Source: a virus. Taken from it: DNA of 20,884 nt. The DNA lies in IMG/VR virus record IMGVR_UViG_3300017991_002024, positions 1-20,884 of that record; one strand, given 5' to 3'. Below, piece after piece: positions 2,144-20,884 of this stretch (positions are counted from its first letter, which is position 1; every line of letters begins with the position of its first letter). Made by a program: the position numbers and the translations under genes. A model generated the notes under the pieces. That model saw only the letters and a list, made by a program, of their open reading frames with translations. It was not told the origin of the DNA and did not search any database.

Positions 2144-3316
2144 ATGGCGTCACCAACCGATTGGGCTCGCGCTATCGCAACGACCATAATCCAGCACACT
2201 CGGGAAGAGGAAATTGCCGTATTTCGGCGGTTCAAAGTCTTCGCGATGCTGGAGTCGAGCGGCAACATTCTGATGAACCAGTCTGGAAGAGGCTTCGACT
2301 GGAATGTTAGGTACCGCAACGCCCCAGTAACCGGCAATACTGGGGACACGCCTCGGACATTCCAGCGCATCAATATGTGGAAGCGAGCAGAGCTTCCGTG
2401 GCGTGGGTTTACAACCACTGACGCCATCTACCGTAGGGAGCTACTGGAGAACCGTGGCCAACAAGCTCTGGTGAACATCGCCAGCCAGATGGCCAGCCGA
2501 CTGCAGGAGTCTCTGGAACAGTACCTGAGCTATCAGCCCTATGTGGACGGTAACGCTCCGGGCAACGAGAACTTCTTCCACGGCGTCCAGTCGTTTCTCA
2601 ACTACTCGGGAACGATCACCGAGGGCAACGCTGCGGTGGCTTTCAAGTCCGACCCCGGCAACATCGGCGACCGGTTTGGTTTCCCCGATGACAGCTATGC
2701 CGGTCTGAAGACCAACCTCGGCTACTACGGCGGTGGCCGGATCAACACCGACACGGGCAACTGGCCCGACGTGCCGGTCGATCCGGAATTTGACTTCTAT
2801 TCCCCCGTGATCGTCAATTACAACTCCAGCGGGTTCCGTGGACAGCGGAACTGGAAGGAGAACTGTGTGGTTGCTACTCGGGAAGGCATTGTGCAGTGCA
2901 AGCGCAATGACACCCGCGAGTCGCAGATCGACATGGTTGTCCTCGACCGCAAGCTCTTCATCCAGTATCTCAACTCGCTGGAGAGCAAGGAACGGGCGAT
3001 CATTACCCGAGAGAACGGCCTGCGTAGCTACGGCTTCAGCGATGTCTTTGAACAGGACGGCGTTGAAATTAGCCACGAAGCTGCGGTTCCAGCCGGTCGC
3101 GGATTCGGGCTGTCCATCGGCAACATGGAACTCCGCTGTCTGGAGAACCAGTTGTTTATGGCAGAGGGCCCGTACTTTTCCGAGGAAACACAAGCGTACA
3201 GATACGCCTGTTCAACACTCGGGAACATGAAGTTCAAGAGTCCCCGTAATTTCTTCATGCTGGCACCGGTCACGACTTCGGACGACGGTAGCAGCGACGG
3301 CTTCTCAAACACCTGA
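2144..3316 (+). CDS. Major capsid protein (HK97-fold type, likely)
   Basis: This 390-residue soluble protein forms the shell of the head. Its length, its lack of membrane segments and its place between a scaffold-like gene and a decoration-like gene all match tailed-phage major capsid proteins. The N-terminal part (about residues 40-95) is rich in Gly, Thr, Arg and aromatic residues, like an extended E-loop. It is followed by a long helix with LVNIASQMASRLQESLEQYL (about residues 108-127) that would be the spine helix. The middle and end are mixed beta segments, ending in a Ser/Asp-rich tail. AAAGG at 2128-2132 is a weakly spaced ribosome site. No family signature was tested, so the fold is inferred. 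The strong terminator two genes on fits a highly expressed capsid transcript. Confidence 0.8.
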   Translation: MASPTDWARAIATTIIQHTREEEIAVFRRFKVFAMLESSGNILMNQSGRGFDWNVRYRNAPVTGNTGDTPRTFQRINMWKRAELPWRGFTTTDAIYRRELLENRGQQALVNIASQMASRLQESLEQYLSYQPYVDGNAPGNENFFHGVQSFLNYSGTITEGNAAVAFKSDPGNIGDRFGFPDDSYAGLKTNLGYYGGGRINTDTGNWPDVPVDPEFDFYSPVIVNYNSSGFRGQRNWKENCVVATREGIVQCKRNDTRESQIDMVVLDRKLFIQYLNSLESKERAIITRENGLRSYGFSDVFEQDGVEISHEAAVPAGRGFGLSIGNMELRCLENQLFMAEGPYFSEETQAYRYACSTLGNMKFKSPRNFFMLAPVTTSDDGSSDGFSNT

Positions 3317-4007: not shown

Positions 4008-4715
4008 ATGGCTGAAAACCAACGAACCTGCCGTCACTGTGCTAGTGTTCTCCCCTCCGACCGAGAACACTTTGCGTGGCATAAACGCACTGGCCTGTCT
4101 TACACCTGTTTGAACTGCCGTCGCGCCCGCAGAGCCAAAGAGAAAGAGCGAGAGAAAGCCCGCCACGAAAAGGCTCTTGCCAAGGTCGAAGCTGCCGGTC
4201 TGGACGTGTATGCCGCTTTGGCGAGGCAGGGCGGCTCCAATATCCCGCACTCCGCTGAACTGGTGGAGAAGATCACCGAGTATTTCGGTGGCGTCTCTGG
4301 GTTAGCGGCGATTCTGGTAAAGCAGTATTACGACAGCAAACCGGGCAGCAGCACCCGCAACAAGCTCCTTGAAACCATTGTTCGCCTTATTCACGGCAAC
4401 GTGGAGCAAGGCGGGGCCCGCAAGCCAATCGAACTATGGACTGAAGAAGAGTTGGAAGCCGAACTCAACAAGCGGTTTGAGATAGCCGTCCTTGCCCAGA
4501 AGAGAATCATCAATGCCGCACCCCAAGCGATCACCGCCGAAGATTCCGCAGATACCGGCGATTACCCAGCACGAACAGAACAAGATTCGGGAACTCCACA
4601 ACGAGTTGAAGAGCCGGGAGTTGGAGGGTCTGAATCTTTACAAGCCGAGCCCGACGCAGGACCAGATTCACCAGTGCAAGGCGAGCGAGATTCTGGTGAT
4701 TGGGGGGAATCGTAG
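4008..4715 (+). CDS. Zinc-ribbon protein in the small-terminase position
   Basis: This 235-residue protein lies immediately before, and overlapping, the large terminase gene, where the DNA-recognising small subunit normally is. Residues 8-37 hold CRHC and CLNC, a four-Cys zinc ribbon of the kind often found at the front of phage HNH and DNA-binding proteins. A very basic helix follows (RRARRAKEKEREKARHEK, about residues 38-55). Residues 80-165 are helical and contain LVKQYYDSKPGSSTRNKLLE and ELWTEEELEAEL, which look like the oligomerising and terminase-contact part of small subunits. No HNH catalytic motif follows, so I do not call it a nuclease. The last 67 or so residues are acidic, disordered-looking and read over the start of terL. 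No Shine-Dalgarno site precedes the ATG. The small-terminase role is inferred from place and shape. Confidence 0.55.
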   Translation: MAENQRTCRHCASVLPSDREHFAWHKRTGLSYTCLNCRRARRAKEKEREKARHEKALAKVEAAGLDVYAALARQGGSNIPHSAELVEKITEYFGGVSGLAAILVKQYYDSKPGSSTRNKLLETIVRLIHGNVEQGGARKPIELWTEEELEAELNKRFEIAVLAQKRIINAAPQAITAEDSADTGDYPARTEQDSGTPQRVEEPGVGGSESLQAEPDAGPDSPVQGERDSGDWGES

Positions 4716-6189
4716 CGGCAAGTCTCTTTGCACGTTCGTCGAGGATGCCCGCTGCGTTTGCAACAAAGACCCCTACAAGAAATATCCCGACAAGGGCACG
4801 CTGGTCGTCATTGGCAAGGACTGGCGGCACATAGGTCTGGTCGCATACGCGATGCTCTTCAAGCCGGGAGCGTTCCGGATTATCAAAGACGCGACGACTG
4901 GGGACTGGCGCACCTACAGCCCAGAAACCGACGCTGACCGTCGCAGCGAGTCACGCCCCGCCCCGCCCCTCATTCCCGAGCGGCTTATCAAAAGCACGTC
5001 GTGGGTACTGAAGTCGGCGAACTACATCCAATCCTGTGAGCTACACACCGGCTGGACAATCTACTTCTTTAGTTCAGAGGGTGATCCGGTACAAGGCTTT
5101 CAGACAGACAGGTGCCACATAGACGAGGATATTAACAACGAGAACTGGGTACCAGAGATGCAGGCCCGCATTGTTGACCGCAAGGGTGTGCTAACGTGGT
5201 CGGCCATGCCACACTCGACCAATAATGCCCTTCTCGGTCTAAAAGAGCGTGCGGAAGAACAAGAACACCTTCACGGAGAAAAAAGCGAGATTCGGCATTT
5301 CAAGCTGCGGTTTCTCGACAATGCCTTCCTCGACGCCGACGAGAAGAAGAAGTCCATTGAAAGATGGTCGGCTGTCAGCCTAGACACCCTTCGCCAACGA
5401 GCCGAGGGCGACTTTGTGGTTGATTCGGTACTGATGTACCCGAACTTCGCCATGGATGTCCACGGGTTTTCGCTGTCTGATTTGCCGGAAAGCAGGGTGC
5501 CGAGCCAGTGGACCCGCTATGCGGTGATCGACCCGGGCCACACCGTCACTGCTGTGCTATTCGCAGCAGTTCCCCCAGACGAGTCAATGATACTGGTCTA
5601 TGACCAACTCTACATCCGCCACTGCAACGCTCGGATTTTCGGCGAACAGTTCGAGAAGAAGGTCCGGGGCAGCCATTTCCATGCCTTCATCATTGATGCC
5701 CACGGTGCCCGCATTAGGGACATTGGTTCAGGCAGGTTGCCTAGCGAGCAATACACGGAAGAGCTAGTAAACCGCAACATCCGGTCGCAGGTCACGGGGG
5801 CCAGTTTTTTAGCTGGCTGTGATGACATCCCGGCTCGGACTGAAGCCGCCCGGTCGATGCTGCATATCCGACCCAACGGAACTCCCATTCTCCGAGTCCT
5901 GCGGAACACCTGCCCCGATCTGGAGCGGGAAATAAAGCGGTATAGGAAGAAGGTCAACTACGTCTCTGGCATGCCCGTTGTCACAGACATGCCCAACACA
6001 AGGGGAGACTGCCATCTGGTCCAGTGTCTTGAATATCTTTGTGCCTATGCCCCCTCTTATCACAAGCCGCCGGTCCAGCCCGAAGCTGAGCCGTGGTGGG
6101 TTAAGGTCGTGGAGCGGCGCAAAAAGATGCTTGCGCAGGAGCAGGGCAGCTTCGTAAACTTGGGCCCGTCCTATAAAGGAGACTTGTGA
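4513..6189 (+). CDS. terL: Large terminase subunit (ATPase and nuclease)
   Basis: The motor pumps DNA into the procapsid through the portal and cuts it. From the ATG at 4513 the protein has 558 residues. The Walker A motif GGNRSGKS is at residues 64-71 and the Walker B motif HIDED at residues 202-206. The C-terminal RNase H-like nuclease shows three acidic positions: AVIDPGH (Asp340), IIDAHG (Asp395) and RGDCHL (Asp499). Length and motif order are those of intact TerL proteins. An upstream in-frame TTG at 4492 would add seven residues, but the ATG has a purine-rich AGAAGAGA six bases before it and is preferred. The first 203 bases overlap the zinc-ribbon gene in another frame. The stop overlaps the next ATG as TGATG, so downstream translation is coupled. 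Confidence 0.93.
   Translation: MPHPKRSPPKIPQIPAITQHEQNKIRELHNELKSRELEGLNLYKPSPTQDQIHQCKASEILVIGGNRSGKSLCTFVEDARCVCNKDPYKKYPDKGTLVVIGKDWRHIGLVAYAMLFKPGAFRIIKDATTGDWRTYSPETDADRRSESRPAPPLIPERLIKSTSWVLKSANYIQSCELHTGWTIYFFSSEGDPVQGFQTDRCHIDEDINNENWVPEMQARIVDRKGVLTWSAMPHSTNNALLGLKERAEEQEHLHGEKSEIRHFKLRFLDNAFLDADEKKKSIERWSAVSLDTLRQRAEGDFVVDSVLMYPNFAMDVHGFSLSDLPESRVPSQWTRYAVIDPGHTVTAVLFAAVPPDESMILVYDQLYIRHCNARIFGEQFEKKVRGSHFHAFIIDAHGARIRDIGSGRLPSEQYTEELVNRNIRSQVTGASFLAGCDDIPARTEAARSMLHIRPNGTPILRVLRNTCPDLEREIKRYRKKVNYVSGMPVVTDMPNTRGDCHLVQCLEYLCAYAPSYHKPPVQPEAEPWWVKVVERRKKMLAQEQGSFVNLGPSYKGDL
6176..6181 (+). promoter_or_regulatory. Ribosome binding site that sets the start at 6189
   Basis: AAGGAG lies seven bases before the ATG at 6189, inside the last codons of terL. 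It favours ATG 6189 over the in-frame GTG at 6186. Confidence 0.8.
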
Positions 6190-6506
6190 TGGCCAAATGG
6201 CAGATGCCCCGCCCCAACATGGGCGACATGGTGTTTTTTAGCACTGATGTCCATAATTTCAGTAACCCCTGCTTGGGTTTCGTGGTGCAAAATCCCGGCG
6301 ACAGCACCGTCAGGATTCTGACATTCACGCCAACGGGGTGGGTTGATCGACCAAGCGTTCACCACAAGGACGACCCGGACCTGAAGACCGACAACGCTTG
6401 GGAAGAACTCGGATGCTGGGCGTTTGCCCCCATCACAGAAGCCATCTACCAAGCCGCTGCCGCTTCCCGGGCCAAGGAGCGTCTAACCAGTGGCACAGCC
6501 AAGTGA
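6189..6506 (+). CDS. Small unrecognised protein between terL and portal
   Basis: This 105-residue protein is unrecognised. The N-terminal two thirds are short beta-like segments (MGDMVFFSTDV, LGFVVQNPGD, VRILTFTP) separated by Gly/Pro/Asp turns, which suggests a small SH3-like barrel. The end is an Ala-rich helix with a basic tail. It carries one of the best ribosome sites in the window and overlaps terL by one base (TGATG) and the portal start by 17 bases, so it belongs to the packaging operon. Small proteins of unknown role between terL and portal are common in podovirus-like genomes. A terminase or portal accessory role is possible but unproven. Confidence 0.75.
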   Translation: MAKWQMPRPNMGDMVFFSTDVHNFSNPCLGFVVQNPGDSTVRILTFTPTGWVDRPSVHHKDDPDLKTDNAWEELGCWAFAPITEAIYQAAAASRAKERLTSGTAK

Positions 6507-8646
6507 AATCCTTCGCCGCCTAACCCAGACGTGGGTGAAAAAGCTGGCGGCAGCGGTGAAATACAAGGAACGCTTCACCGAAGACGCCAAAGAAGCCAGC
6601 AACTTCTTCGATGGCCAGCACAATTGGATGTGGCAGGACGCCTATGCTCGGGGCGAATCTGGCTACAACCAGTCTATCGCGCCGCCCAGCTTCAGAATCC
6701 AAGTCAACAAGGTTTTTGAGCTAGTCGATATTTATGGCAGCGTTATGTACCACAGGAACCCTGTGCGTACTGTGTCTGTGATGGAGTACCCGGACCTGCC
6801 CCCCACGGCTCTGGGCATTCAGGTGCAGCCGGGCATGGTCCCCGACATGCTGCCGCCCGACCAGCAGCAAGTTCTGCAGGTTGCCGTTGCTGAGTCACAG
6901 GACAAGATTAACCGGCTCGCAGTTGCCGAGTTGATGCAGGCTTATCTGAATGTCACCCCCCAAGAATTGGACCTGAAGCGTCAGGGCCAGAAGTGGGTGC
7001 GAGAAGCCCTCATCAAAGGCATGGGGGTAATGTGGACCGAGCTAGTCCAGATTGAGGCTAGCGGGGACGAGTCCCAAGAACCGATCAACGTCGTCGGCAG
7101 TTTCTATGACAGCGTAGACAACTTTCTGATGGACGGTGACTGGGAAAACATGGACGATATCTTGTGGTGTGCCAAGCGGTGCATACAACCCATAGATGTG
7201 GTTGCCCAAGAATTTGGCATTCCGGAAGAGCAGCTTCGCAAGCACATTGACCAAACCAGTGAAATCAAACTCTACAAAGAGGGCAAGTCGGCACGGCGGG
7301 GGAAGAAGGACGGGGTTGCCCAGAGCAACGAACTGGTCACCTACTACAAGATTTGGTCCAAGTGCGGGTTCGGCGACCGGCTCAAAGACGCCCCCAAAGA
7401 GTTCCGGGGCATGTTCGACAGCCTCGGCAAATACTGCTACTTGGTCATCGCCGAAGGCATTGACTTCCCCCTAAACGTCCCGCCGTCTGTGCTAGAGCAG
7501 TATGGGGAGCAAGCTGCCAGCGAAGAGCCCCAAGCCGACTCCGAGATTCTGACCCGGGTCGCGTGGCCAATCCCGTTCTACTGCGACAACAACGGCTGGC
7601 CTTTCACCCCGCTCTATTTTCACTGGAAGCCCGGGTACGCCTACCCCATCTCCCACATTCGGCCAGCGATTGGGGAGTTGAGACTGTTGAACTGGGCCAT
7701 GTCGTTCTTGGCCACCCGAATCGCAACTTCCTGCGAAACCATCGTTGCTGTCCAAAAGGCCGCCGACGAAACCATCAAAGACCAGATTCTGGCCCCCAGC
7801 GAGGGCGGCTTCAAAATGGTCGAAATCTCCGAGCTACTGGGCCGGGGCATCGGCGATGTAGTTAGCGTGTTTCAGATGCCGCAGGTTACCAAGGACTTGT
7901 GGGACATAATCAGCGCGATTGCGCAGATGTTCGCCGAGCGCACCGGGTTGTCAGAACTGGTCTACGGCTACACCCGCTCATCCTTCAGAAGTGCCAGCGA
8001 AGCGCAGATTAAGCAAGAGAATATCTCCATACGCCCGGACAACATGGCAAACCAGTTGGAAGACGCCATGTCGTTGCTCTCGCGGCGAGAAGCCCTTGCT
8101 GCCCGCTGGCTACTGGAGCCGAAGGACTTGGTGCCGTTTGTTGGGCAGGTTGGGGCGTTAGCGTGGCAGCGGAACATTGCCACCCGCAGCATTGCCAGTT
8201 TGTCCCGCGACTTCATTTACCGCGTCGAAGCTGGCAGCGCCCGCAAGCCAAACAAAGCTACCCGGGCGGAACAAATGCAGATGGCCGTGCAAACGCTTGG
8301 ACCAATTGTGTCCAACCTCATCGGGGCAGGCATCGTCGAACCATTCAATGCCCTTATGCGAGACTGGGCTGACTCATTGGATATTGACGCTAGCCCCTAC
8401 CTAGTGCCGCCGCCTGCGCCCCCTGCTGCGCCGATCCCCGGGCCTCCCCCGAGCCTGAAGAGGAACGTGCTGCGCAGGGGGCCGGTGGCGAGCCAGAACC
8501 TGAAGAAGACGTGCCGCCTGACCAAGTGCCGCCAGAGTTGGCACCGCAGGCGTGAAGTCCCGGTCGCAGAAAAAGCGGGAGGCCAATCTTTGGGCCCGTT
8601 ACCGCGTAAGCCCCGTTCAGTGGGAGGAAATGCTACGCAATGCTAA
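6490..8646 (+). CDS. Portal protein, with a frame disturbance near its C-terminus
   Basis: The portal is the dodecameric ring at the head vertex through which DNA enters and leaves. The first ~650 residues look like a complete portal: a helical N-terminus, VNKVFELVDIYGSVMYHRNP (from residue 72), and a long stem and crown region up to PLMRDWADSL-like helices near residue 625. The size matches podovirus portals of about 600-730 residues. The start is GTG 6490 with AAGGAG ten bases upstream. From about 8451 the frame turns into a basic, Arg/Lys/Cys-rich tail out of keeping with the protein. The other frame (from 8451) instead gives a Pro/Glu-rich acidic tail ending at TGA 8553-8555, which overlaps the next gene's GTG as GTGA. 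I read the true end as 8555, reached by one extra base or a -1 slip in the C runs at 8436-8450. The range given is the frame as it stands. Confidence 0.88.
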   Translation: MAQPSEILRRLTQTWVKKLAAAVKYKERFTEDAKEASNFFDGQHNWMWQDAYARGESGYNQSIAPPSFRIQVNKVFELVDIYGSVMYHRNPVRTVSVMEYPDLPPTALGIQVQPGMVPDMLPPDQQQVLQVAVAESQDKINRLAVAELMQAYLNVTPQELDLKRQGQKWVREALIKGMGVMWTELVQIEASGDESQEPINVVGSFYDSVDNFLMDGDWENMDDILWCAKRCIQPIDVVAQEFGIPEEQLRKHIDQTSEIKLYKEGKSARRGKKDGVAQSNELVTYYKIWSKCGFGDRLKDAPKEFRGMFDSLGKYCYLVIAEGIDFPLNVPPSVLEQYGEQAASEEPQADSEILTRVAWPIPFYCDNNGWPFTPLYFHWKPGYAYPISHIRPAIGELRLLNWAMSFLATRIATSCETIVAVQKAADETIKDQILAPSEGGFKMVEISELLGRGIGDVVSVFQMPQVTKDLWDIISAIAQMFAERTGLSELVYGYTRSSFRSASEAQIKQENISIRPDNMANQLEDAMSLLSRREALAARWLLEPKDLVPFVGQVGALAWQRNIATRSIASLSRDFIYRVEAGSARKPNKATRAEQMQMAVQTLGPIVSNLIGAGIVEPFNALMRDWADSLDIDASPYLVPPPAPPAAPIPGPPPSLKRNVLRRGPVASQNLKKTCRLTKCRQSWHRRREVPVAEKAGGQSLGPLPRKPRSVGGNATQC
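8451..8555 (+). other. Alternative-frame acidic C-terminus of the portal
   Basis: In the frame one base back from the portal frame this stretch reads EPEEERAAQGAGGEPEPEED and then VPPDQVPPELAPQA before TGA. It continues the Pro-rich PPPAPPAAPIPGPPP of the portal smoothly and is typical of acidic portal ends. It contains no start codon context of its own, and a stop at 8391-8393 closes this frame upstream, so it can only be translated by a frame change within 8394-8451. Confidence 0.65.
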
Positions 8647-9055
8647 TCACGGCTGCCAGTTGTGTGGGGATGATTCAAACCTCTGTGTGGACCACTGCCA
8701 TCTCACTGGACGGGTTCGCGGCGTTCTCTGTCGCAACTGTAACATTGGCATTGCTCGCCTTGGCGACACCGCGTCTGGATTAAAGAAGGGCTATGAATAC
8801 CTCAAAAAATTTGAACGCTCCTGTTCCGTGCGACGTGCAGCGGCTCGGCCCGCAGGCCATCGCCCAGTTTCACAAATTGCTATCAAACGGCTGCACGCCA
8901 GCGCTTGCAGAGATGGTGATTTGCCGCCAACCGCCGGGGGTCAAAGGCGCAGACCGCACCTTCATGCAGGGAAGGCTAAATCAGCAGTGGTTAGACGATA
9001 TGCCGAAGGATCACGCCCAGCACATTCTCGGCGAGGCAAGACGGGCGGGGATTAA
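8552..9055 (+). CDS. HNH endonuclease, endonuclease VII type, with over-long reading frame
   Basis: The first ~86 residues form a compact zinc-bound HNH (beta-beta-alpha metal) nuclease of the phage recombination endonuclease VII family. CQLC (Cys35, Cys38) and CRNC (Cys60, Cys63) bind zinc, and VDHCH (Asp47, His48, His50) and Asn64 are the catalytic positions. The linker GRVRGVLC between them is the family hallmark. Free-standing proteins of this kind act as homing nucleases or junction-resolving enzymes in phages. The start is GTG 8552, overlapping the putative portal stop as GTGA. Members normally end near the equivalent of YEYLKKF at residue 86. Here the frame runs on for about 80 Arg/Ala/His-rich residues that simply lie across the next gene, so the real protein is probably shorter. 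An added base in the A6 run at 8804-8809 would stop it at 8812-8814. Confidence 0.82.
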   Translation: MKSRSQKKREANLWARYRVSPVQWEEMLRNANHGCQLCGDDSNLCVDHCHLTGRVRGVLCRNCNIGIARLGDTASGLKKGYEYLKKFERSCSVRRAAARPAGHRPVSQIAIKRLHASACRDGDLPPTAGGQRRRPHLHAGKAKSAVVRRYAEGSRPAHSRRGKTGGD

Positions 9056-9359
9056 CACCAGCGGGCGTTTCTATATGAGCGGGCTGGCAGACAAGCGTGG
9101 CCCCGCTGACCCCGCCGCGTGGGTCGATTCTGTCAGTGACGTTAAGAACGTCGCCAAGGCCAGAAACCTAACGGTGTCCGGCATTGTCGAACACAAGGGA
9201 GAGCCGGTGCCGAGGCCGAAGCCCAAGCGGCTGTCGGCCCGACTCACCCGCGAGATGATGGCCATTGAACGCCGGAAGAACCCCGGCCTGAAGAGAATGA
9301 AGGACGGCGACCTGAAAGAGATGGTCAAAGAAAAGTACGGGCGAAAGCATAAGAAATGA
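8793..9359 (+). CDS. Unrecognised basic protein between HNH and adaptor genes
   Basis: This 188-residue soluble protein matches nothing I recognise. It starts at ATG 8793 with GAAGGG four bases upstream, inside the end of the HNH domain. The N-terminal ~50 residues look like a small helical domain (LGPQAIAQFHKLLSNGCTPA), the middle (about residues 95-140) is mixed, and the last 50 residues are strongly basic, ending GRKHKK. It overlaps the next gene as ATGA. Its place between portal and adaptor suggests a virion or packaging accessory role. Because the HNH gene appears to be wedged against it, the original N-terminus may have been changed by that insertion. The next in-frame start is the ATG within AEMVIC, about 40 codons later. 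Confidence 0.78.
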   Translation: MNTSKNLNAPVPCDVQRLGPQAIAQFHKLLSNGCTPALAEMVICRQPPGVKGADRTFMQGRLNQQWLDDMPKDHAQHILGEARRAGINTSGRFYMSGLADKRGPADPAAWVDSVSDVKNVAKARNLTVSGIVEHKGEPVPRPKPKRLSARLTREMMAIERRKNPGLKRMKDGDLKEMVKEKYGRKHKK

Positions 9360-10612
9360 ACACAGCCCAAGACCTTATCTACTATCTGCTTTCTTCAACT
9401 GGTGGCGGTGCCCAAGACGGCGAGCATGCGGCTATTCGACAGGCAGTAGTGCATGGGGTGAGGGAAGTGTTGCAGGCCCGGGACTGGCTCTGGCACTTGA
9501 AGCAGAGTTCCTTCACATCGGGCCCCTTCAACACAAATACCTACCAGCTATCGTACCTGTCCCCCGACCGGAGCTTCTGCGCCGTTGACACATTGGACGG
9601 GCTGAAGGTCGGCGACGTGTTGGAGTGCCCCAACATTTTCGACAGGCCGCCGCGAATCTTGGCATTGAACCCATCCTTTGGGTTTCGGTCTGACGACAGC
9701 TTGGTCACCACCAGCCCCTCCATCGCACTCGACCGCCCCCCGGTCTATCGCAGCACTACCGCCACCAACGCTACCCGAGAACTAATTGCAGCAACGGTCT
9801 ACCCGTACTACCTGCTGCCTATGGATGTTCGCAGCATTGACTCACTGGTATCTGACGAAACCGGGGTGTCGCTGACGTATGTGTCGCCGCAAGAGTATCA
9901 GCGGCTGGAAGCCACCCAGACCGGCACTGCGGAGCCGTTTTTTTATACGGTGATGCGAAGCCCCGTCTTCCCTGACCACTACGAGATTCGCTTTGTCTAC
10001 ACGCCGCCGGACAACGAAACCTATCTCTACACCTACCGCTACACCCCGCCCCCCATCAAACACATGGGCTACGAGCGGCGATGCAGACAGGGGACCATCA
10101 GCTACTTTGCGTCAGGTCTGGGGGAGCAACTGCACCGGGTGGCCTACGCCTACGGCTCGGGCACTAACTTCCCCCCGCAGTGTCAGAATGCGGTGCTACG
10201 GGTCGGAACTGCAGATGAGTTCCCAGAACCCGTAGGTTCGCTGACGCCATTCCAGTACGAGTTTCGCCTGCTGGGCAAAGTCGGCACCAACGAGGTGCTG
10301 GCTCTGGAGGTGCCCGGCAGCATTGAGCCAATCCTTGGTTCGCCGTCTTCTCCGGTAAACCTCAAATACAGCATCGCGGATGAGATCGACTGCAGCCCGC
10401 AGATGTGGACCGCCATGCTCAGTGCCGTAGAGATGTGGTACGCCCGGATTGCGGGCAAAGACGCCAAGGACGTGGTGAGCCTATTCAACCGCGATCTGCG
10501 GTTAGCGATGGAGACTGACCGTATCACCTCTGTTGCCACCACCAGCCCATCTGTCACTCGGACGCCTCGGTCCATGGGCTGGCATTCAACTGTTCTGCCA
10601 GACGTGGGCTAG
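9356..10612 (+). CDS. Head-tail adaptor, tail tubular protein A-like (probable)
   Basis: This protein would form the ring between portal and tail nozzle. The N-terminal ~50 residues are helical, with a pattern (LIYYLLSSTGG, IRQAVVHGVREVLQARDWLW) that follows the layout of T7 gp11-type adaptors: a short helix, a Gly-rich turn, then a long helix ending in Gln-x-Arg-Asp/Gly-Trp. The rest is beta-rich with many Tyr and Pro, and a helix near the end (TAMLSAVEMWYARIAGKDAK). At 418 residues it is about twice the T7 protein, so it carries an extra domain. It is paired with the nozzle-like gene one base downstream, as gp11 and gp12 are in T7. The start is the ATG of an ATGA overlap. The match is by pattern only. 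Confidence 0.65.
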   Translation: MNTAQDLIYYLLSSTGGGAQDGEHAAIRQAVVHGVREVLQARDWLWHLKQSSFTSGPFNTNTYQLSYLSPDRSFCAVDTLDGLKVGDVLECPNIFDRPPRILALNPSFGFRSDDSLVTTSPSIALDRPPVYRSTTATNATRELIAATVYPYYLLPMDVRSIDSLVSDETGVSLTYVSPQEYQRLEATQTGTAEPFFYTVMRSPVFPDHYEIRFVYTPPDNETYLYTYRYTPPPIKHMGYERRCRQGTISYFASGLGEQLHRVAYAYGSGTNFPPQCQNAVLRVGTADEFPEPVGSLTPFQYEFRLLGKVGTNEVLALEVPGSIEPILGSPSSPVNLKYSIADEIDCSPQMWTAMLSAVEMWYARIAGKDAKDVVSLFNRDLRLAMETDRITSVATTSPSVTRTPRSMGWHSTVLPDVG

Positions 10613-10613
10613 C

Positions 10614-13600
10614 ATGAAGATAACCAGTTGGCTCGGCCTCTCTACGGCGATTTCAAACTACGCCTCGCCCACCGGGTCAGCCGTCGAGCAGACCAATCTA
10701 CAGCTATTGCTGCCCGGGCAGGCTACGCCCCGCCCCGCTCTGTCAACGCTAGTGAACAAGCAAGACGGCAGCTTCATTTTCGGGTTGTACCGAAAGACCA
10801 ACGGGCTGGCAGTCGAAGACACCGTTATTTCCTACATGCGGAGTTTTGATCCTACTGAGTATTATCTCACCCGCACCGGCATCGAAACGCTCGACACGAC
10901 GGACCCGAACAGTGAAGAGATTCGGATACTCCGGGTACTCACGGAACTGACCAACGGCGGCGACTACTACCCCAGTTTCTGTGAAGACCGACACGGCAAC
11001 GTCTACACGTTCTTTGGGTTTGGCATTCGCCCTCTTGTTGTTGAGTCACAGAGTTTTGCGACAAACCAAATTGGCGTTGACGCCCCTGAACAAGCACCGT
11101 CCGTGACGGCATCGGGCTCGGGCCAGTTTGTGGAACGCATCGACGTGCTAACCGGTGGCGGCAGTTATTGGGCCGCCCCCACCATTAGCATTGAGTCCAC
11201 GGCTGGCTCATTTCTGCGGCAAGCAAAAGCTCGGGCAATTGTAGAAAACGGTCTGGTTGTCGGTGTTGAGATGTTAGACCACGGCACCGGCTACACCCGG
11301 GCACCTGTGGTGACGGCAGTCGAGGGCAAAAAGGGGCGTGGGTTCAGCGCCCGCTGCGCTGTCGAGGTGGTTGCTGCGAGTTTCGGACACAGCCAGTTTA
11401 AGTTCTATGACCCTGAGCGCGATGGCGAAACCCCCGGCACCGAACTGCCAATAGCCGAAGACAACAGCCCCACCTATTCGTCCAGCATTGGGGGCATCTT
11501 AGACAATTACGATCTGCGTCTTATCGGAGACGGATCGGGGGAAACAGGATACACCGGCACTCTATCAGAAATCACCGGTGTCGCCACACATCGCGTTACT
11601 AGCTCGACGCCGTTTCCGCACATGGTCGGCGATATCGTCGAATGCGAATTTGCTCAGGCGGGGCTGGCTACGGTAACCGAGACGGTCAAAATACTGGCTG
11701 TCTCCAAAGCCGGTGCGGACTACCGGTTCGACATCGCGCCGACGCTGCTAGACGGCCACACCAATGCTACTGTGACCTTTCGGCATGCCGAGGGCAGCCA
11801 CACCCACGCATCCGTTTCCTCAACGGAATCCAACGCTAAATTCGCCCGCGTCGAATTAGCTGCTATCGCCCCACTAGCTGACGCCGACACCGGCAAGCGG
11901 TTCTTCAACGGCACCTCAATTTCGGCTATCGACACAACGACCAACACCATCACTCTGTCGCACTGGACGCAGACCGGAGAAATGGAAGTCGGCTTCAAGT
12001 CGGAAGATAGCCATTTCGCCTTGGGTGTAGGCCAGCTAATACTGACATACGACCACGACCACGACAACGACGACAGCACTGCGACCCGGCCCTACATCTT
12101 TGCCTACCGCGTCGTCGAAGAAGGTGCAAATCTCGTTGACGACAAGTTTACGGCTACCGGCAGTTTGTCTGGGGGCGGCGGCTCGGGGGCAACCGCGTTT
12201 GTTGAATTTGAAGCGGTGGACAACCAGTTCCAAGCCAGAATCGCAGAAACCGAGAACACCATACAGACGTTCTCTGACACCTATTACAGCAACGACTACC
12301 AGAACTGGGGCCTGCAGGCCCACCCCTCGCAGTTCAAGTGGGGCTGGCAAAACCGCATCAACGACCACCGGTCATGTGACTTTTATCTTTTCTTCACTAG
12401 CTGTTACTACGACGGCTGGACTTATCGGGCCTACTTCCCAGATTATCGCCGCGTAACAGTTTGGCTGCATACTGGCCCGGACGGGCAGTACGGGCAGCAG
12501 CACTGGACCCCGGTTGGCGTTCCGGTGCAGGTTGACGGCACAGGCCCTTACGCAGACGTGGAAGTGACGCCCTCGCTGCTTGCTGACGGCACATCACCCG
12601 TACCGGTGTCTGGCAGTACGAATCCCGTCGTCAGGTTGCGATTTGAATACGCACCGTCTTCGTGGGATCGCACATGGGTAGGCAGGTGGCTCGGGTCTTT
12701 CTATGCGGGAGCAGACGACGATATCGGCACTATGATCCATAGGCCAACCTACTCCGGTTCGGCAGCGCGAGCGGACTGGTGGAGAAACAAAGAGGGGAAC
12801 ACTGCTCGCCCGCTGGTGAACGTTACCAGCGCAACGCTCATCAACTCCGGGTCTGGCTTGCCCCCAGAGACGCGATTTCGCCTGCGGGTGTGTCAGGCGA
12901 AAGCCAATGCAGAACACCAAGTGGGCCCCGTTGGGGCGGGTTCCAGCCCGCCAAGAACTGTTGCCGTAAGCCATGCTGTTCGCGACTTCGCCACCTACTA
13001 CTACGATCTGCGGATTGACAACACCCAGCCTACGGCGAGCGGCCCCGGCAAGACGCTTGGCGATGTAACCGAAACCCGGGTTGTCAGTGCCGGTACGGGA
13101 TACCCGCAAGGCGGCGGCTCTGTGCTGCAGCTAGCACAACGCAGCAAGGCGGGGCAAGCCTACAAGTTCTCCCGGTACTACTCTTACAGCGTCGTGCAGC
13201 TAACCGAAGCGAACATTCTCGACAGCATTGGCACGGTTACCGTTCTATCACAGGGACAAGACTACTACGCACCCCCAACGTTATTTGAAACGCCATCACC
13301 GGGGTACGGGGTGCAAGCCGTTCCCGTGATCGACACGACCGGCAAGATTACCGCAGTCACAATTAAAAATCTGCAGGGTGGTTCGGGGTACGAACAGGGC
13401 AAAGAACCCTTTCTGGTCACGTCCGACGACGACGCAACGCTCGTCCCCGTCATGCGTCCCGTCATGCAAGGGGTTTACCGATGTACCTACCGGTTTGCCG
13501 ATCTATCCCGCACGGTTGCAGGAGAAGCAACACTTGTTGGTTCTGCGGGCAGCAAGACCGCAACGCTGGACTGGTCTGGCGAACGAGACGTTTTGCTGGA

Positions 13601-15572
13601 TGCGGTACTTGACGCCGAGGGCTTGCCTCCGGGGATCGAAGTGCGGTCAGCCCGTCTGTCCAGCGGCACGCTGTATGACATCACCCTGTCGAATGAATTG
13701 CTCGCTGATTTTTCTGGCGAGGTGATTGTCCGCGATATGTCTAAGCCCGTGTTCTACAGCAACTTTGCTCCAATTCAGGACTTGGACACTGGCCCCACTG
13801 CAGAGCGTGCCAGCACCGGCGAAATCATTTGGTCTATCCCTGCACTGAATATCCCGCCTCGCGTGGACCGGATTGAGCTTCTGCGAACCAGCGGCGACCA
13901 GAGTTTGGTGTTCTACCGCGTGCAGGCATACGGCAAAGTAACCGGCGACAGCGTTGTGGTTGTCGGCACGGACAGGCTCAACGACGAAGAGCTATTCGAC
14001 ACGTCCCGCTCGCACTATGCCGCCGTCCCAATTGTGCTGCCCAACGGGGGGCTTAATGCGTACCGGTTTGGGGTAGCCCGTGACGACTGCAGTATTTGCT
14101 GCTCTTTCCAAGATCGGCTCTGGTTCGCCGGGTCCACATCTGGCGAAGCGGTCAACACTGTGTTCTTCAGCGAGTTCGACGAGTACGAGTCCTGCCCGCC
14201 GCAGAACGAAATCCCGATCCAAAACAACCAGCGAGTCACGGACTATGTGACGGCCTTGGTCCCGTATGGCTCGGTGCTGCTGGTCATGCAGTCTTCCCAC
14301 GCCTATCAGCTTTCCTACAACACTGACCCAGCAATCGACGCTGCGGTCAATCTGATCGCAAACCGTGGGGTTCTCAACCACCGCTGCTGGGACTTGTTCG
14401 ACGACGTGCTGTATGCCGTGGACGAGCGAGGCGTCTACAAAATGCAGCGGTCGGGGCAGGTCACAGATTTGAGTGAAGCAATTGCCGACGTGTTTGTCGA
14501 AGGCCAAATTGACTTCACCAAGAGCGATGCCTGTCACCTGAAAATAGATCGCAAGCAGCGATTGCTGCGGGTGTTTGTGGTGACCAGTGACGGCGGGCAG
14601 GAGCCAGACCTCGCGTACTGCTATAGCTTGGCATACGGGACGTGGTGGAAGGAAACCTACCCCACGTCTCTGACCTGCTCCACCACCTACAAGCGCTGGG
14701 ACACTGGTCGGGAAGAGCCGCTGTACGGCACCATGGACGGTACCCTGCGGGTGTTTGAAGGCACCAAGGAACTGCCTTACCGAAGCGTCAAAACAATCAC
14801 TCTTTTGGACGGCGGGTCAGGTTACACAAGCCCGCCAAAGGTTGTTGCAGAGGGCGGCATCGGAGCCGAGTTGCGAGCCGTCATACGGGACGGCATTGTT
14901 ACCGAGATAGAAATTCTCAGTCGCGGGTTTGGGTTTGGGCAGGCACCGGATTCCGAGACATTTGCCCCCAGCATCTTTATTAGTATTGACCGGCCACCAT
15001 CCGGCGGCGAGCGGGCCAGCGCAGTTGGGTCAGCCTATTACCCAGAGTTCGTAACGCCGAAGGTCGTGGATGAAAGCGTTGTCCCCCCCGTGCTGGTCGA
15101 GAACCCCGAAACCACCCGGCTGACTGTCGGCTGGAGCTTTAAGACTCCCAACCTTGAACTCATCACCGACGCCAATGTCAAGGGCGGGGAGCAACAAATC
15201 GACCGTAGCATCACCCTGACCTACCAGCCCACCGCAGGCGCATCGGTGATAACCCTGAAGCACTTCTATAACAACTCAGAAAACCCCCGCCAAAACGTGA
15301 TGCCTCGCGACCGGGGCACGGGCTGGAAGCACATAGAGGACAGCACCCGCACCGAACTGGACATGGACACGGCCCGAGTCCCACTGGGCCATGCGACTGG
15401 CGTGGCCCAAGCCCGATTTGCAAACCGGGTATACGCCGACATGGGCGGCGCAGATCGCCATTTGGCGATAGAGCTTACCCAGCCATCGTTTGTCGTTGAG
15501 GGCGATGCGACAGTCGCCACTGCCATGCTGTATTCCTACGAAATCAATGGAGTCGTGTCGCGTGAGCAGTAA
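10614..15572 (+). CDS. Very long tail-nozzle-like protein with GSGY repeats
   Basis: From ATG 10614, one base after the previous stop, the protein has 1652 residues; in-frame TTG 10533 would start inside the adaptor gene and is rejected. The N-terminus (about residues 1-150, with LLLPGQATPRPALSTL) and the part from about residue 1040 to 1390 (RLWFAGS near residue 1170, then YGSVLLVMQSSHAYQLSY and DVLYAVDERGVYKMQ) resemble the beta-propeller tail hubs of short-tailed phages (P22 gp10, T7 gp12). Between them sits about 800-900 residues of extra sequence, including a Tyr/Trp-rich part near 560-640. Repeats centred on GGGSY, GTGY, GSGL, GQDYY and GSGY occur near residues 181, 224, 746, 827, 875, 923 and 1400. 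No enzyme motif or membrane segment is visible. A fused tail-fibre or receptor-binding role is possible. Confidence 0.72.
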   Translation: MKITSWLGLSTAISNYASPTGSAVEQTNLQLLLPGQATPRPALSTLVNKQDGSFIFGLYRKTNGLAVEDTVISYMRSFDPTEYYLTRTGIETLDTTDPNSEEIRILRVLTELTNGGDYYPSFCEDRHGNVYTFFGFGIRPLVVESQSFATNQIGVDAPEQAPSVTASGSGQFVERIDVLTGGGSYWAAPTISIESTAGSFLRQAKARAIVENGLVVGVEMLDHGTGYTRAPVVTAVEGKKGRGFSARCAVEVVAASFGHSQFKFYDPERDGETPGTELPIAEDNSPTYSSSIGGILDNYDLRLIGDGSGETGYTGTLSEITGVATHRVTSSTPFPHMVGDIVECEFAQAGLATVTETVKILAVSKAGADYRFDIAPTLLDGHTNATVTFRHAEGSHTHASVSSTESNAKFARVELAAIAPLADADTGKRFFNGTSISAIDTTTNTITLSHWTQTGEMEVGFKSEDSHFALGVGQLILTYDHDHDNDDSTATRPYIFAYRVVEEGANLVDDKFTATGSLSGGGGSGATAFVEFEAVDNQFQARIAETENTIQTFSDTYYSNDYQNWGLQAHPSQFKWGWQNRINDHRSCDFYLFFTSCYYDGWTYRAYFPDYRRVTVWLHTGPDGQYGQQHWTPVGVPVQVDGTGPYADVEVTPSLLADGTSPVPVSGSTNPVVRLRFEYAPSSWDRTWVGRWLGSFYAGADDDIGTMIHRPTYSGSAARADWWRNKEGNTARPLVNVTSATLINSGSGLPPETRFRLRVCQAKANAEHQVGPVGAGSSPPRTVAVSHAVRDFATYYYDLRIDNTQPTASGPGKTLGDVTETRVVSAGTGYPQGGGSVLQLAQRSKAGQAYKFSRYYSYSVVQLTEANILDSIGTVTVLSQGQDYYAPPTLFETPSPGYGVQAVPVIDTTGKITAVTIKNLQGGSGYEQGKEPFLVTSDDDATLVPVMRPVMQGVYRCTYRFADLSRTVAGEATLVGSAGSKTATLDWSGERDVLLDAVLDAEGLPPGIEVRSARLSSGTLYDITLSNELLADFSGEVIVRDMSKPVFYSNFAPIQDLDTGPTAERASTGEIIWSIPALNIPPRVDRIELLRTSGDQSLVFYRVQAYGKVTGDSVVVVGTDRLNDEELFDTSRSHYAAVPIVLPNGGLNAYRFGVARDDCSICCSFQDRLWFAGSTSGEAVNTVFFSEFDEYESCPPQNEIPIQNNQRVTDYVTALVPYGSVLLVMQSSHAYQLSYNTDPAIDAAVNLIANRGVLNHRCWDLFDDVLYAVDERGVYKMQRSGQVTDLSEAIADVFVEGQIDFTKSDACHLKIDRKQRLLRVFVVTSDGGQEPDLAYCYSLAYGTWWKETYPTSLTCSTTYKRWDTGREEPLYGTMDGTLRVFEGTKELPYRSVKTITLLDGGSGYTSPPKVVAEGGIGAELRAVIRDGIVTEIEILSRGFGFGQAPDSETFAPSIFISIDRPPSGGERASAVGSAYYPEFVTPKVVDESVVPPVLVENPETTRLTVGWSFKTPNLELITDANVKGGEQQIDRSITLTYQPTAGASVITLKHFYNNSENPRQNVMPRDRGTGWKHIEDSTRTELDMDTARVPLGHATGVAQARFANRVYADMGGADRHLAIELTQPSFVVEGDATVATAMLYSYEINGVVSREQ
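15549..15552 (+). promoter_or_regulatory. Ribosome binding site choosing GTG 15562
   Basis: GGAG lies nine bases before the GTG at 15562, inside the end of the nozzle gene. It favours that start over the in-frame ATG 15547 and TTG 15490, which have no comparable site. Confidence 0.55.
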
Positions 15573-16191
15573 CAAGTCTGACCTAGAGGGCTCTCTTGCT
15601 GCCGCTGGGCTGCCCCCCGCTGCGGCCAAGATTATCTCAAACGCCCTCGCAAATTTGGACTCGCCTAAGACCGCGCAAGGGGGCTCGTTAGTAGACAGTA
15701 CGCCCAAACAGGCGATGCGGCTAATTGGGCGAGACGCCCGACAGTTCCAATTTCCCAATTTGGACTATGTGCCCCAAGAGCCTCGCCGCCGCCTCAGAAA
15801 CACCAAAAACACCGCTTACCAGCCTGCCGTCAGCGAGCATCCCTACCGCGACTCTCAGCCCGTCGATACGGGAGTTCCGCTCTCACCGGAGCAGTTCACG
15901 GGCAAGAACGCGGTGCAAATCACCCGTCGCACTTCAGATGGAGTGCCGGTGTATGAAATAGGGCTGCGCGTGCAGGGGGACGGGGAGTTCCTCAAACTCA
16001 GCCCCCACCGGGAGAGCCTGCGTGCTGTTCGGCTATCTGCGTCTACCAGCAACCCCGACCGTGCCCAGCTTTTGGTCACCAACACAGACACAGAGATTCG
16101 CCTTGTTTTGCAGCTTGTTGGCCTGCAGGAAGTGACTGTCTCTTTGCCGGATGGCGGCACCAAAAACCTGTTAGCGTGGACGACAGATTGA
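15562..16191 (+). CDS. Unrecognised protein after the nozzle gene, possibly virion
   Basis: This 209-residue protein starts at GTG 15562, overlapping the nozzle stop by 11 bases; an ATG at 15547 would add five residues. The N-terminus is a short Ala-rich helix (LEGSLAAAGLPPAAAKIISN), the middle is a Pro/Arg/Tyr-rich flexible stretch (about residues 60-110), and the last ~95 residues form a likely beta domain (VQITRRTSDGVPVYEIGLRV, then LLVTNTDTEIRLVLQLVGLQ). No family is recognised. The position after the nozzle and before a row of Gln-rich proteins makes a tail or ejection-related virion protein the best guess. Confidence 0.7.
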   Translation: MSSNKSDLEGSLAAAGLPPAAAKIISNALANLDSPKTAQGGSLVDSTPKQAMRLIGRDARQFQFPNLDYVPQEPRRRLRNTKNTAYQPAVSEHPYRDSQPVDTGVPLSPEQFTGKNAVQITRRTSDGVPVYEIGLRVQGDGEFLKLSPHRESLRAVRLSASTSNPDRAQLLVTNTDTEIRLVLQLVGLQEVTVSLPDGGTKNLLAWTTD

Positions 16192-17254: not shown

Positions 17255-17545
17255 ATGGCCCTCATTATCAACGTCGCTTTCGACGAGATGCGCGACGATA
17301 GCGTCAACAAGATGCTGAAGGACGCCTACCGCGAAGACAAGAACAAAGGCAAGCCTCTGCATCTCCGCAAGCAAAAGTCGGAGCCAGACGACGATGACGA
17401 CGACGAGCGCGACAACCCGGCTGACTTGGACCAGAAACTGACGGCCAGCAAGCCGCCCACGGTAACTACTGCTGACATGCCGCATGCCGTGGCAGCCAAG
17501 ATGAGCAAGAAAGACCTGAAGCCTAAGTCTCGCAAGGGTAAGTAA
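17255..17545 (+). CDS. Small highly charged protein with an Asp run
   Basis: This unrecognised 96-residue protein starts at a well-supported ATG. A short hydrophobic beta-like start (MALIINVAFDEM) is followed by a charged helix, a run of six Asp (in SEPDDDDDDERDNP, about residues 43-56) and a strongly basic end (KMSKKDLKPKSRKGK). The split of acidic middle and basic tail suggests a flexible, nucleic-acid or partner-binding protein. Its stop overlaps the next start as TAATG, so the two are expressed together. No enzyme motif is visible. Confidence 0.72.
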   Translation: MALIINVAFDEMRDDSVNKMLKDAYREDKNKGKPLHLRKQKSEPDDDDDDERDNPADLDQKLTASKPPTVTTADMPHAVAAKMSKKDLKPKSRKGK

Positions 17546-19780: not shown

Positions 19781-20884
19781 ATGGGAAAAAGAGGACGCCC
19801 ACGCAAAGCCGCTAAGATGACCGCCGATGGGTTGCGCAAGGCTCTAATCGCTCGGAGATTTACCGATGGCGACACCCCAGTCAGCACAAAAGAGCTAGAA
19901 AGCCTCGTTGATGCCGGTAAAGACAAGGGCGGCCACGGGCTGGACGTGAACAAACTGCGCGAGTTGCTTGCTGCTGAAGGCTTTGCCGTAGAGGGCGGTG
20001 CGCCAGTTGCCCGAACGGCAGAGATGCTCGGCAAAGAGATCGACGACCTGCAGACGGCACAGCAAAAAATCGAAATCGCGATGGACCCGGATAACCCGGA
20101 GCCATCTGATGTTAAAAAGCTGCAGCAGATTCAGGAACGCTACACAAGACTTGTCAAAGAGCTTGACGCCCTGCAAGCCGAAAATGCCCCCCAGAACATT
20201 AGCCCAGACGCCGTTACGTCAGCCGATGATTCTTTGCCTCCGGTTGAAGCTGCTGCAGAAACCTCTGGCCTTACTCCAGAAGCGCAGCAGTTTCTGGCAC
20301 AAGCATCATCTTCTGGTGCGATGCCAGCGTTTATCACAAAAAACCTCCGAAAGATCGCTGCCGACAACAACATTCCTGTCACAAAGCAAACTACTGCTGC
20401 AGATATTGTTGAGGTGCTAAAAAGCCGAATGGGTGGCGAGTCGGCACCTCCCGCCCCAGCAGCACCATCTCCTGCCGTCACAGAGCCACCATCGATGCGG
20501 GTGCGGCGTCAGGACTATGCTCCCAACATTGGGAGAGAAGAGCCCGGGAACTATACTGGCTCGCCTAATCGCACCCCGTTGGTTAGGCCAGAGCCCGGCG
20601 AAACGCTTGGAGGGCTACGGGCTATGCCAGAGCCAGCCGCCGCAACGGCGAGGAATGCTGGTGTGCCAACGCCCGAGGAGGACGCCGCCGCAGTGCAGCG
20701 GATTCAGCGAGAAGCCCCTCCCCCACCGCAGATGGCGGCACAGTATGAGCCGCTTGAACTAGACACGGATGCAGTAGACGATGCGCTGCTTAGAACGCAG
20801 GGGGTAGCGCAGGGGGGTGAGCCGCTGGGTGGCCTAATGGACAACGACCCCGCTCCGGTAGACCCAACTCTGTATGTGGACCAA
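19781..20884 (+). CDS. AT-hook protein, unrecognised, 3'-truncated by the window edge
   Basis: The gene starts one base after the previous stop and stays open to the end of the window (368 residues visible). Residues 1-12 read MGKRGRPRKAAK: KRGRPRK is a perfect AT-hook, a short motif that binds the minor groove of AT-rich DNA. Next come a helical segment (LRKALIARRF, then LNKLRELLAAEGF-like helices to about residue 70), a coiled-coil-like stretch near residues 80-135 (IDDLQTAQQKIEIAMD, KKLQQIQERYTRLVKELDAL), a small helical patch (residues ~165-220) and then a long Pro/Ala/Glu-rich disordered tail. It follows a protein with a basic N-terminus, so a virion protein that rides on or with the packaged DNA is a fair guess. 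The family is unknown. Confidence 0.75.
   Translation, partial: MGKRGRPRKAAKMTADGLRKALIARRFTDGDTPVSTKELESLVDAGKDKGGHGLDVNKLRELLAAEGFAVEGGAPVARTAEMLGKEIDDLQTAQQKIEIAMDPDNPEPSDVKKLQQIQERYTRLVKELDALQAENAPQNISPDAVTSADDSLPPVEAAAETSGLTPEAQQFLAQASSSGAMPAFITKNLRKIAADNNIPVTKQTTAADIVEVLKSRMGGESAPPAPAAPSPAVTEPPSMRVRRQDYAPNIGREEPGNYTGSPNRTPLVRPEPGETLGGLRAMPEPAAATARNAGVPTPEEDAAAVQRIQREAPPPPQMAAQYEPLELDTDAVDDALLRTQGVAQGGEPLGGLMDNDPAPVDPTLYVDQ

Follow-up and report, generated by a model that had tools for sequence, protein, structure and literature searches.

Downstream of genes for a portal and an adaptor-like protein, a 20,884-base IMG/VR virus record (here called the window, meaning the whole stretch of DNA that was analysed) carries an uninterrupted open frame of 1652 residues, running from an ATG at position 10614 to a stop codon ending at 15572. 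The question raised by this locus is what kind of tail protein has reached such a size, and what the additional residues do. An earlier note, made from the sequence alone, had proposed a nozzle-like hub split by 800-900 extra residues that carry repeats, and had suggested that the enlarged protein took on fibre or receptor-binding work and replaced separate fibre genes. Based on the evidence described below, we consider it very probable that this frame encodes the nozzle, or hub, of a short phage tail, with a split propeller and an insert of about 790 residues at the slot for tip domains, where it would shield the tail tip and may touch the cell, and that specificity resides mainly in fibre genes.

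Gene context and relatives

The order of the portal, adaptor-like and nozzle-type genes (Table 1) agrees with that of nozzle proteins, with the caveat that the SU10-type portal and adaptor matches from Pfam are both below cut-off in the window. The portal is weakly similar to that of Microcystis phage Mae-Yong1326-1 (E 2e-5), and the terminase gives a weak match to that of Roseobacter phage CRP-9 (E 9e-3). An endonuclease-VII-like frame (8552-9055; PF02945, E 1.8e-15) overlaps the portal gene at its 3' end as well as the gene that follows, and a frame of equal length occupies the equivalent position in one relative (L003). To the right of the fibre-base gene, the window codes for proteins of 186, 160, 96, 744 and at least 368 residues, after which the record ends. 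The last two of these (17545-19779 and 19781-20884) are long basic or proline-rich proteins without a family match, and are possibly internal virion proteins; similarly placed proteins in four relatives (G006, G010, G031 and G034) have at best marginal similarity to them (E 4e-4 to 0.012 for the first).

Table 1. Coordinates of features in the window, with the parts of the nozzle-type protein given by residue number
Feature	Coordinates	Strand	Basis or remark
Major capsid protein	2144..3316	+	phrog_9953, E 6e-8; 84 relatives; query for relatives
Large terminase subunit	4516..6189	+	36 relatives in viral contigs; query for relatives
Portal protein	6490..8646	+	phrog_156, E 4.4e-7
Small protein	8793-9359		After endonuclease-VII-like frame (which overlaps it), before adaptor-like gene
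Adaptor-like protein, upstream of nozzle	9356..10612	+	PF24175 SU10_adaptor, E 0.0042, 18 bits (curated cut-off 27)
Nozzle-type tail protein, 1652 residues	10614..15572	+	Open frame; relatives in 29/33 records; predicted fold of a short relative resembles nozzles
Residues 1-152: first blades of the propeller and N-terminal strands of the platform	10614..11069	+	Alignment to L156 model (42 to 40, 136 to 152)
Residues 153-941: insert of about 790 residues that separates the propeller halves (tip-domain slot)	11070..13436	+	Alignment, conservation, L156 model
Residues 164-250: two-unit repeat module A, kept in short relatives too	11103..11363	+	PHROG 154-251; conservation; shuffles
Residues 251-850: fast-varying insert part, wholly or mostly absent in short relatives	11364..13163	+	Model of low confidence, with a small barrel near 309-395
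Residues 868-945: repeat module B, far insert edge	13215..13448	+	PHROG 866-934; conservation
Residues 942-1384: remaining propeller blades; 1049-1375 most conserved	13437..14765	+	Alignment, conservation; hub profile against 9nwi_Y, E 5.1e-5
Residues 966-1048: second addition, missing from short relatives	13509..13757	+	Up to 407 residues in L196
Residues 1385-1450: repeat module C, after the propeller and before the C-terminal platform	14766..14963	+	PHROG 1390-1449; absent in L156-L159
Residues 1506-1652: C-terminal platform part	15129..15569	+	Conserved in short and large relatives; L156 833-960 to window 1511-1644
Fibre-base protein, 209 residues, GTG start	15562..16191	+	Base domain without the C-terminal tip of relatives

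Relatives were found via the terminase (36) and the capsid protein (84), and 29 of the 33 of their records that were searched contain a nozzle match. Direct scans of viral contigs with the whole nozzle, the 744-residue protein and the fibre base recovered no relative, and therefore the window could not be extended rightwards. Searches of phages by tblastn matched the whole nozzle through a repeat module only, in six Synechococcus phage records (37% identity over 99 residues to Sf-FP1), and gave only seven weak matches (E 3-5) for the hub part. With a hub alignment of 21 sequences (A1), 287 relatives were uncovered in IMG/VR and one more in a genome collection. The loci examined comprise 80 of these 287 hub relatives and the one genome-collection contig, together with 80 of the 84 capsid relatives, and the hub is present in all 81 loci from the hub search.

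Closed frames of the large class of nozzles span 1579-2293 residues before start trimming and 1520-2266 after it, and the closed main frames of the small class span 821-1132 residues (809 in L155 and 689 in L240); no closed frame between 1132 and 1520 residues occurs in the set of 81 loci. The window nozzle is an ordinary member of the large class. Its enlargement is common to its close relatives (1520-2266 residues), and the nozzles of the sister group are short.

A predicted nozzle fold with a broken propeller

The fold was modelled for L156, a full-length relative of 967 residues, from an alignment of 57 sequences (A2), and the model reached a pLDDT of 83.9 and a pTM of 0.66. L156 is 31% identical to the window protein overall and 38% in the hub, and the layout of the window protein was carried over by alignment, such that residues 42, 136, 458, 820, 833 and 960 of L156 correspond to residues 40, 152, 942, 1384, 1511 and 1644 of the window protein. 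The best structural match found with VIA-align was the Pa223 tail protein (9nwi_Y, Z 29.6 over 438 residues), and the nozzles of SU10 (7z4b_DW, Z 26.0 over 439 residues) and P22 (8eap_D, Z 25.1 over 422 residues) and the crAss001 muzzle (7qol_P, Z 24.7 over 541 residues) were matched as well, in alignments that cover approximately residues 15-962 of the 967. Foldseek placed the cyanophage A4 nozzle first (E 4.7e-17), then SU10, Pa223, Pan3, P22, crAss001 and others, with T7 listed too. The sole PDB sequence match of hub profile A1 was likewise the Pa223 tail chain.

When single seven-bladed propellers, among them virginiamycin B lyase, are aligned to the model, about 272 residues match across residues 42-819/820 of L156, which indicates that the propeller of the model is complete but broken. 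This propeller (42-820) maps with a long break to residues 40-1384 of the window protein, and thus the window propeller is predicted to consist of residues 40-152 and approximately 942-1384, with the break at about 153-941. First and later blades are accordingly apart in sequence, on the L156 model and, by alignment, in the window; how many blades lie within residues 1-152 is judged from the layout of SU10, T7 and crAss001. Both termini belong to the core of the model and both are conserved in 27 large relatives.

The split of the hub is confirmed by sequence conservation, given that the mean identity of 27 non-redundant large relatives to the window protein is 41% at residues 1-50 and 52-60% at 1101-1300, and drops to 16-32% with many gaps at 251-850. 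The proposed 800-900 extra residues are also a fair description, composed of about 790 residues at 153-941 and about 80 at 966-1048 that are without counterpart in short relatives. The sizes used for comparison, 794 residues for T7 gp12 and 472 for P22 gp10, are those of the record coordinates. Structure prediction, which had been recommended as a check, bears out the nozzle-type assignment in that L156 matches nozzles end to end with a broken propeller; for the insert, the model is weak and its fold is without assignment.

No Pfam family matched the nozzle frame, and its PHROG matches fall at three places (approximately residues 154-251, 866-934 and 1390-1449), plus phrog_33544 at 1160-1277. 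The labels of these PHROG families include 'tail fiber protein', and the record of SU10 gp17 (NC_027395 16027-19044) names that nozzle 'tail fiber protein; host specificity', so that public labels of nozzle genes can mislead. Both labels would fit a tail fibre or adhesin that resembles a nozzle by chance. However, apart from phrog_33544, the labelled matches lie on repeat modules only, and the fold matches nozzles over its whole length. We therefore rejected this reading, which we regard as extremely improbable, and return to the nozzle assignment.

Comparison with known nozzles

Nozzles of considerable size have been described previously, and with 1005 residues in SU10 gp17 and 1371 in crAss001 muzzle gp44 (record coordinates), the 1652 residues of the window protein are less exceptional than they would otherwise appear. 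The crAss001 muzzle shares the propeller core, and its published description (PMC10172136) places a first Ig domain at residues 163-292, between blades 2 and 3, followed by a second domain together with the distal part at 318-1021, where length varies by insertion and a role in touching the cell surface is considered likely. Its insert at 163-1021 (about 860 residues) corresponds in place and size to that at about 153-941 in the window, and repeat modules are absent from the portion of the description consulted. The phages also differ, since crAss001 has a genome of 102.7 kb and the relatives of the window found here reach approximately 63 kb. No confident match was obtained when crAss001 gp44, as a single sequence, was compared by hhalign (probabilities of 1.6, 0.2 and 0.6).

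The SU10 nozzle carries four Ig-like domains, which separate blades 2 and 3, and docks short fibres by a loop on blade 1 (PMC9509320); the window insert is about twice as long and is edged by repeats. According to PMC6702177, the tip domain of T7 gp12 arises from blade 3, and a fibre dock joins its propeller to the platform. T7 gp12 and P22 gp10 share the core with the window nozzle, but their insert is far smaller or lacking, and the Pa223 tail protein, with 513 residues, is a third of the window nozzle in length and has little room for an insert. As judged from the L156 model, the window insert occupies the slot of the SU10 and crAss001 tip domains and resembles that of crAss001 in size.

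Repeat modules at the edges of the insert

The window nozzle contains four copies of G[ST]GY. When its composition was shuffled 5000 times, the mean was 0.098 copies, and no shuffle gave as many as four. Among pairwise comparisons of the modules in Table 1, those of A with C (score 93) and B with C (58) exceed all of 1000 shuffles (maximum 53 in each case), and that of A with B (46) is not above the shuffles (maximum 50). All three modules are matched by PHROG profiles (best E 3.9e-17). The repeats reported in the earlier note are hence real, and its module near residue 1400 is module C, outside the insert; A and B sit at the insert edges as two-unit modules, and repeats do not make up the insert throughout.

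Nearly the whole equivalent of window residues 301-825 is missing from the three short relatives L150, L152 and L155, and yet these carry modules A and B, which indicates that these modules belong to the family core and that the enlargement lies between them. In another relative (L153), a repeat module occurs at an extra place, a hub loop after approximately window residue 1110, and such modules therefore can be added at several points. T4-like cyanophages have the same modules in structural proteins of the neck, baseplate and tail (phrog_460 and others); the T4-like Synechococcus phage proteins concerned, with their neck, baseplate wedge and tail fibre labels, share the module only and are otherwise different from the window nozzle.

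This distribution could be taken to mean that separate fibres or decoration proteins attach to the repeat-rich insert, which would serve as their scaffold or docking surface without host contact of its own. Module C appears to lie at the position of the T7 gp12 fibre dock (PMC6702177), the fibre-base gene adjoins the nozzle in the window and its relatives, and the occurrence of the modules in several structural proteins of cyanophages fits such a use. Nevertheless, the presence of A and B in short relatives leaves the enlargement unexplained by docking, and the fastest-changing part (251-850) is outside the modules. We consider a pure docking role unlikely, if still worthy of some attention, and favour an insert at the tail tip that can meet the cell, with the modules as general structural decoration at the insert edges and at the putative fibre-dock position.

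Variation and structure of the insert

Compared with one another in 378 pairs, 28 large proteins are on average 27% identical over residues 251-530 and 30% over 531-850, versus 58% over the hub, and identity falls below that of the hub in 99.7% and 100% of pairs, respectively. Among close pairs, with hubs 86-93% identical, the values are 66-95% for 251-530 and 77-86% for 531-850, except in pairs with L174. Sequence comparison thus shows that the insert drifts, gains or loses blocks and follows ancestry, and wholesale exchange was not seen between close pairs. The fast variation that had been proposed as a check is present relative to the hub, but it tracks descent, and swapping is located in the neighbouring fibre gene (see below).

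A model of the insert (window residues 140-1062, 28 sequences) reached a pLDDT of 67.9 and a pTM of 0.41, and gave no PDB match at E <= 0.001. Its best Z, 8.5 over 79-84 residues, belongs to a small barrel common to unrelated proteins (model residues 169-257, approximately window 309-395), and in BFVD it has low-TM matches to cyanophage tail proteins. The crAss001 muzzle and the SU10 nozzle are absent among its structural matches, an absence that excludes nothing. With a model this poor and no PDB match at that threshold, we assign no fold to the insert, and infer its placement at the tip from known nozzles. The slot in question forms the tail tip in known nozzles, and on this analogy contact of the insert with the cell surface is plausible.

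Fibre genes beside and beyond the nozzle

In the large group, the gene that follows the nozzle begins with approximately 200 conserved N-terminal residues, here called the base. In G010, the base is followed by a tail-collar domain (PF07484, E 1e-15), which was also found in G006 and G036 (3 of 26 records searched), and in other large relatives by quite different tips. One such pair is L170 and L187, whose hubs are 87%, nozzle inserts 80% and fibre bases 60% identical, and whose tips are without similarity; the more distant L163 carries a tip of the L170 type (45% identity over 177 residues, E 5e-46). Unrelated tips thus stand beside nozzle inserts that are 78-80% identical in these relatives, which assigns module swapping to the fibre gene rather than the nozzle. 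Such behaviour is typical of the specificity modules of fibres. The exchangeable tip that is characteristic of a tail fibre or receptor-binding protein was accordingly not seen in the nozzle insert of the L170/L187 pair of relatives.

We compared the next gene with the dock segment of the nozzle, defined as the equivalent of window residues 1376-1505, which is either compact (108-133 residues) or expanded (245-545 residues). Among 28 large nozzles tabulated, three (L161, L003 and L176) were left out of the contrast because their next gene is truncated. The other 25 consist of ten with a compact dock and a tipped fibre, 13 with an expanded dock and no tip, and two, the window and L175, in which a compact dock is followed by a bare fibre base. 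The next gene is hence tipped in 10 of 12 compact-dock nozzles (window included), and the tip is missing in 13 of 13 expanded-dock nozzles, although the latter are not 13 independent cases, in that the expanded group requires two changes on the hub tree and one or two in bootstraps. Given so few origins, the apparent link between dock expansion and tip absence is suggestive only. Four expanded-dock nozzles scanned with PHROG profiles yielded repeat-module families only, and their dock insertions showed no fibre domain.

Genes further downstream also bear on this issue. At least one gene with the PHROG label 'tail fiber' follows in five of seven large-nozzle records (G010, G006, G008, G040 and G041), where the label is an annotation rather than a test of function and the scans covered selected proteins per record. 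Three of these records (G008, G040 and G041) are without a tip in the next gene and carry their 'tail fiber' genes further downstream, with best E-values of 1.5e-9, 1.4e-17 or lower (two genes in G040) and 2.4e-7. The genes at 26576-27730 in G010 and 8369-9673 in G006 have mixed labels ('tail fiber', 'head decoration' and unknown), and both records also have the collar-domain fibre. The downstream genes scanned in G034 and G031 received 'minor tail' and 'head decoration' labels only and no 'tail fiber' label; the gene next to the nozzle in G034 has a tip. In G031, which has a bare base like that of the window, the base is followed by proteins of 189, 567 and 322 residues, two of 115-117 residues and an adhesin-like frame of at least 527 residues. 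The 186- and 160-residue proteins of the window have relatives in G031 (E 1.4e-14 and 2.2e-30). The window ends just before the fibre region of its relatives, and thus the absence of fibre genes there means nothing. In G019, the sole short-nozzle record scanned, none of four downstream proteins had a PHROG or Pfam match.

These observations bear on how the enlargement should be read. If the enlarged nozzle were the receptor-binding protein and had replaced separate tail fibres, as the earlier note suggested, a fast-varying insert at the tip slot would be expected, and the insertions of up to 407 and 545 residues that relatives accept at 966-1048 and in the dock would find an explanation, as would the bare base in the window and L175 and the missing tips of the expanded-dock group. 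However, most large relatives with a compact dock keep a tipped fibre gene beside an equally enlarged nozzle, three records with tip-less next genes (G008, G040 and G041) have 'tail fiber' genes elsewhere, inserts remain alike where tips are unrelated, dock insertions contain no recognized fibre domain in the four nozzles scanned, and the short-nozzle G019 result is the opposite of what replacement predicts. Replacement is consequently quite improbable, and this part of the proposal is abandoned; what is retained is a fast-changing insert at the tip slot for which surface contact is plausible.

It is also conceivable, if improbable, that attachment is a single task divided between the nozzle and the fibre gene that follows, with parts traded from one to the other, in which case the enlarged tip insert may be the main host contact of the window phage, which has neither a big dock nor a tip. 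In our favoured reading, the main seat of receptor specificity in this clade is most likely the separate fibre gene next to the nozzle, together with additional fibre genes.

A split nozzle gene in the short sister group

In 38 of 40 loci of the short-nozzle sister group (L201-L240), a separate frame upstream encodes the first 90 or so residues of the nozzle, as in L208, where this frame spans 4367-4643 and the main frame is open from 4641. The gene is also split in L147-L155, and is unsplit in L156-L159 and in the large class. A programmed frameshift was considered as the cause and rejected: all 38 split loci have the main frame out of register with the upstream frame, but the offset varies between them. 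In L155, both pieces are in one frame with a TAG between them, and a Shine-Dalgarno-like sequence of four or more nucleotides precedes 22 of 35 second frames examined. Two genes fit better than a programmed frameshift, and two polypeptides may together make up the short-group nozzle. No published description of a split nozzle gene surfaced in the literature, as judged from result entries.

Two further observations concern this group. One hub relative (L240, 35% identity) is on a contig of a Pirellulaceae metagenome-assembled genome, with a main frame of 689 residues and a split N-terminal piece, which is a hint of a planctomycete host or else a binning error. In addition, genes labelled 'minor tail protein' in Arthrobacter phages (Jasmine, Brad, Adat and others; H16-H23) show weak similarity (E 5e-4 to 8e-4) to the short-group hub.

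Discussion

The hub fold, the place of the insert, its variation and the exchange of fibre tips come from sequence and structure prediction; for the hexameric state, orientation, docking and triggering we follow SU10, T7 and crAss001. With these caveats in mind, the N- and C-terminal parts are predicted to form one nozzle core, a body of the seven-bladed-propeller type with a platform, and six copies beneath the adaptor ring would form the end of the tail tube. Propeller loops would close the DNA channel and hold the DNA in place. The inserted domains would project from the tail end, shield the tip and meet the cell surface, and the insert may help to pass the opening signal to the propeller. 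The fibre-base protein would attach near the dock and either carry or recruit a specific tip.

Literature searches, which also covered nozzle inserts and were judged from result entries, surfaced no published description of nozzles in connection with receptor binding and insertion. We expect specialists to be only modestly surprised by the insert, since crAss001 has one of such size at the same place, and the window protein represents a strongly enlarged, new branch within a type of protein that is already known. What we expected least was the split nozzle in the short sister group. More broadly, a large uncultured family, with 287 hub relatives in IMG/VR and two clear size classes, joins the nozzle proteins. 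This family reveals which positions of the core tolerate large additions, and allows the question to be asked how enlargement of the tip and the fibre genes evolve together.
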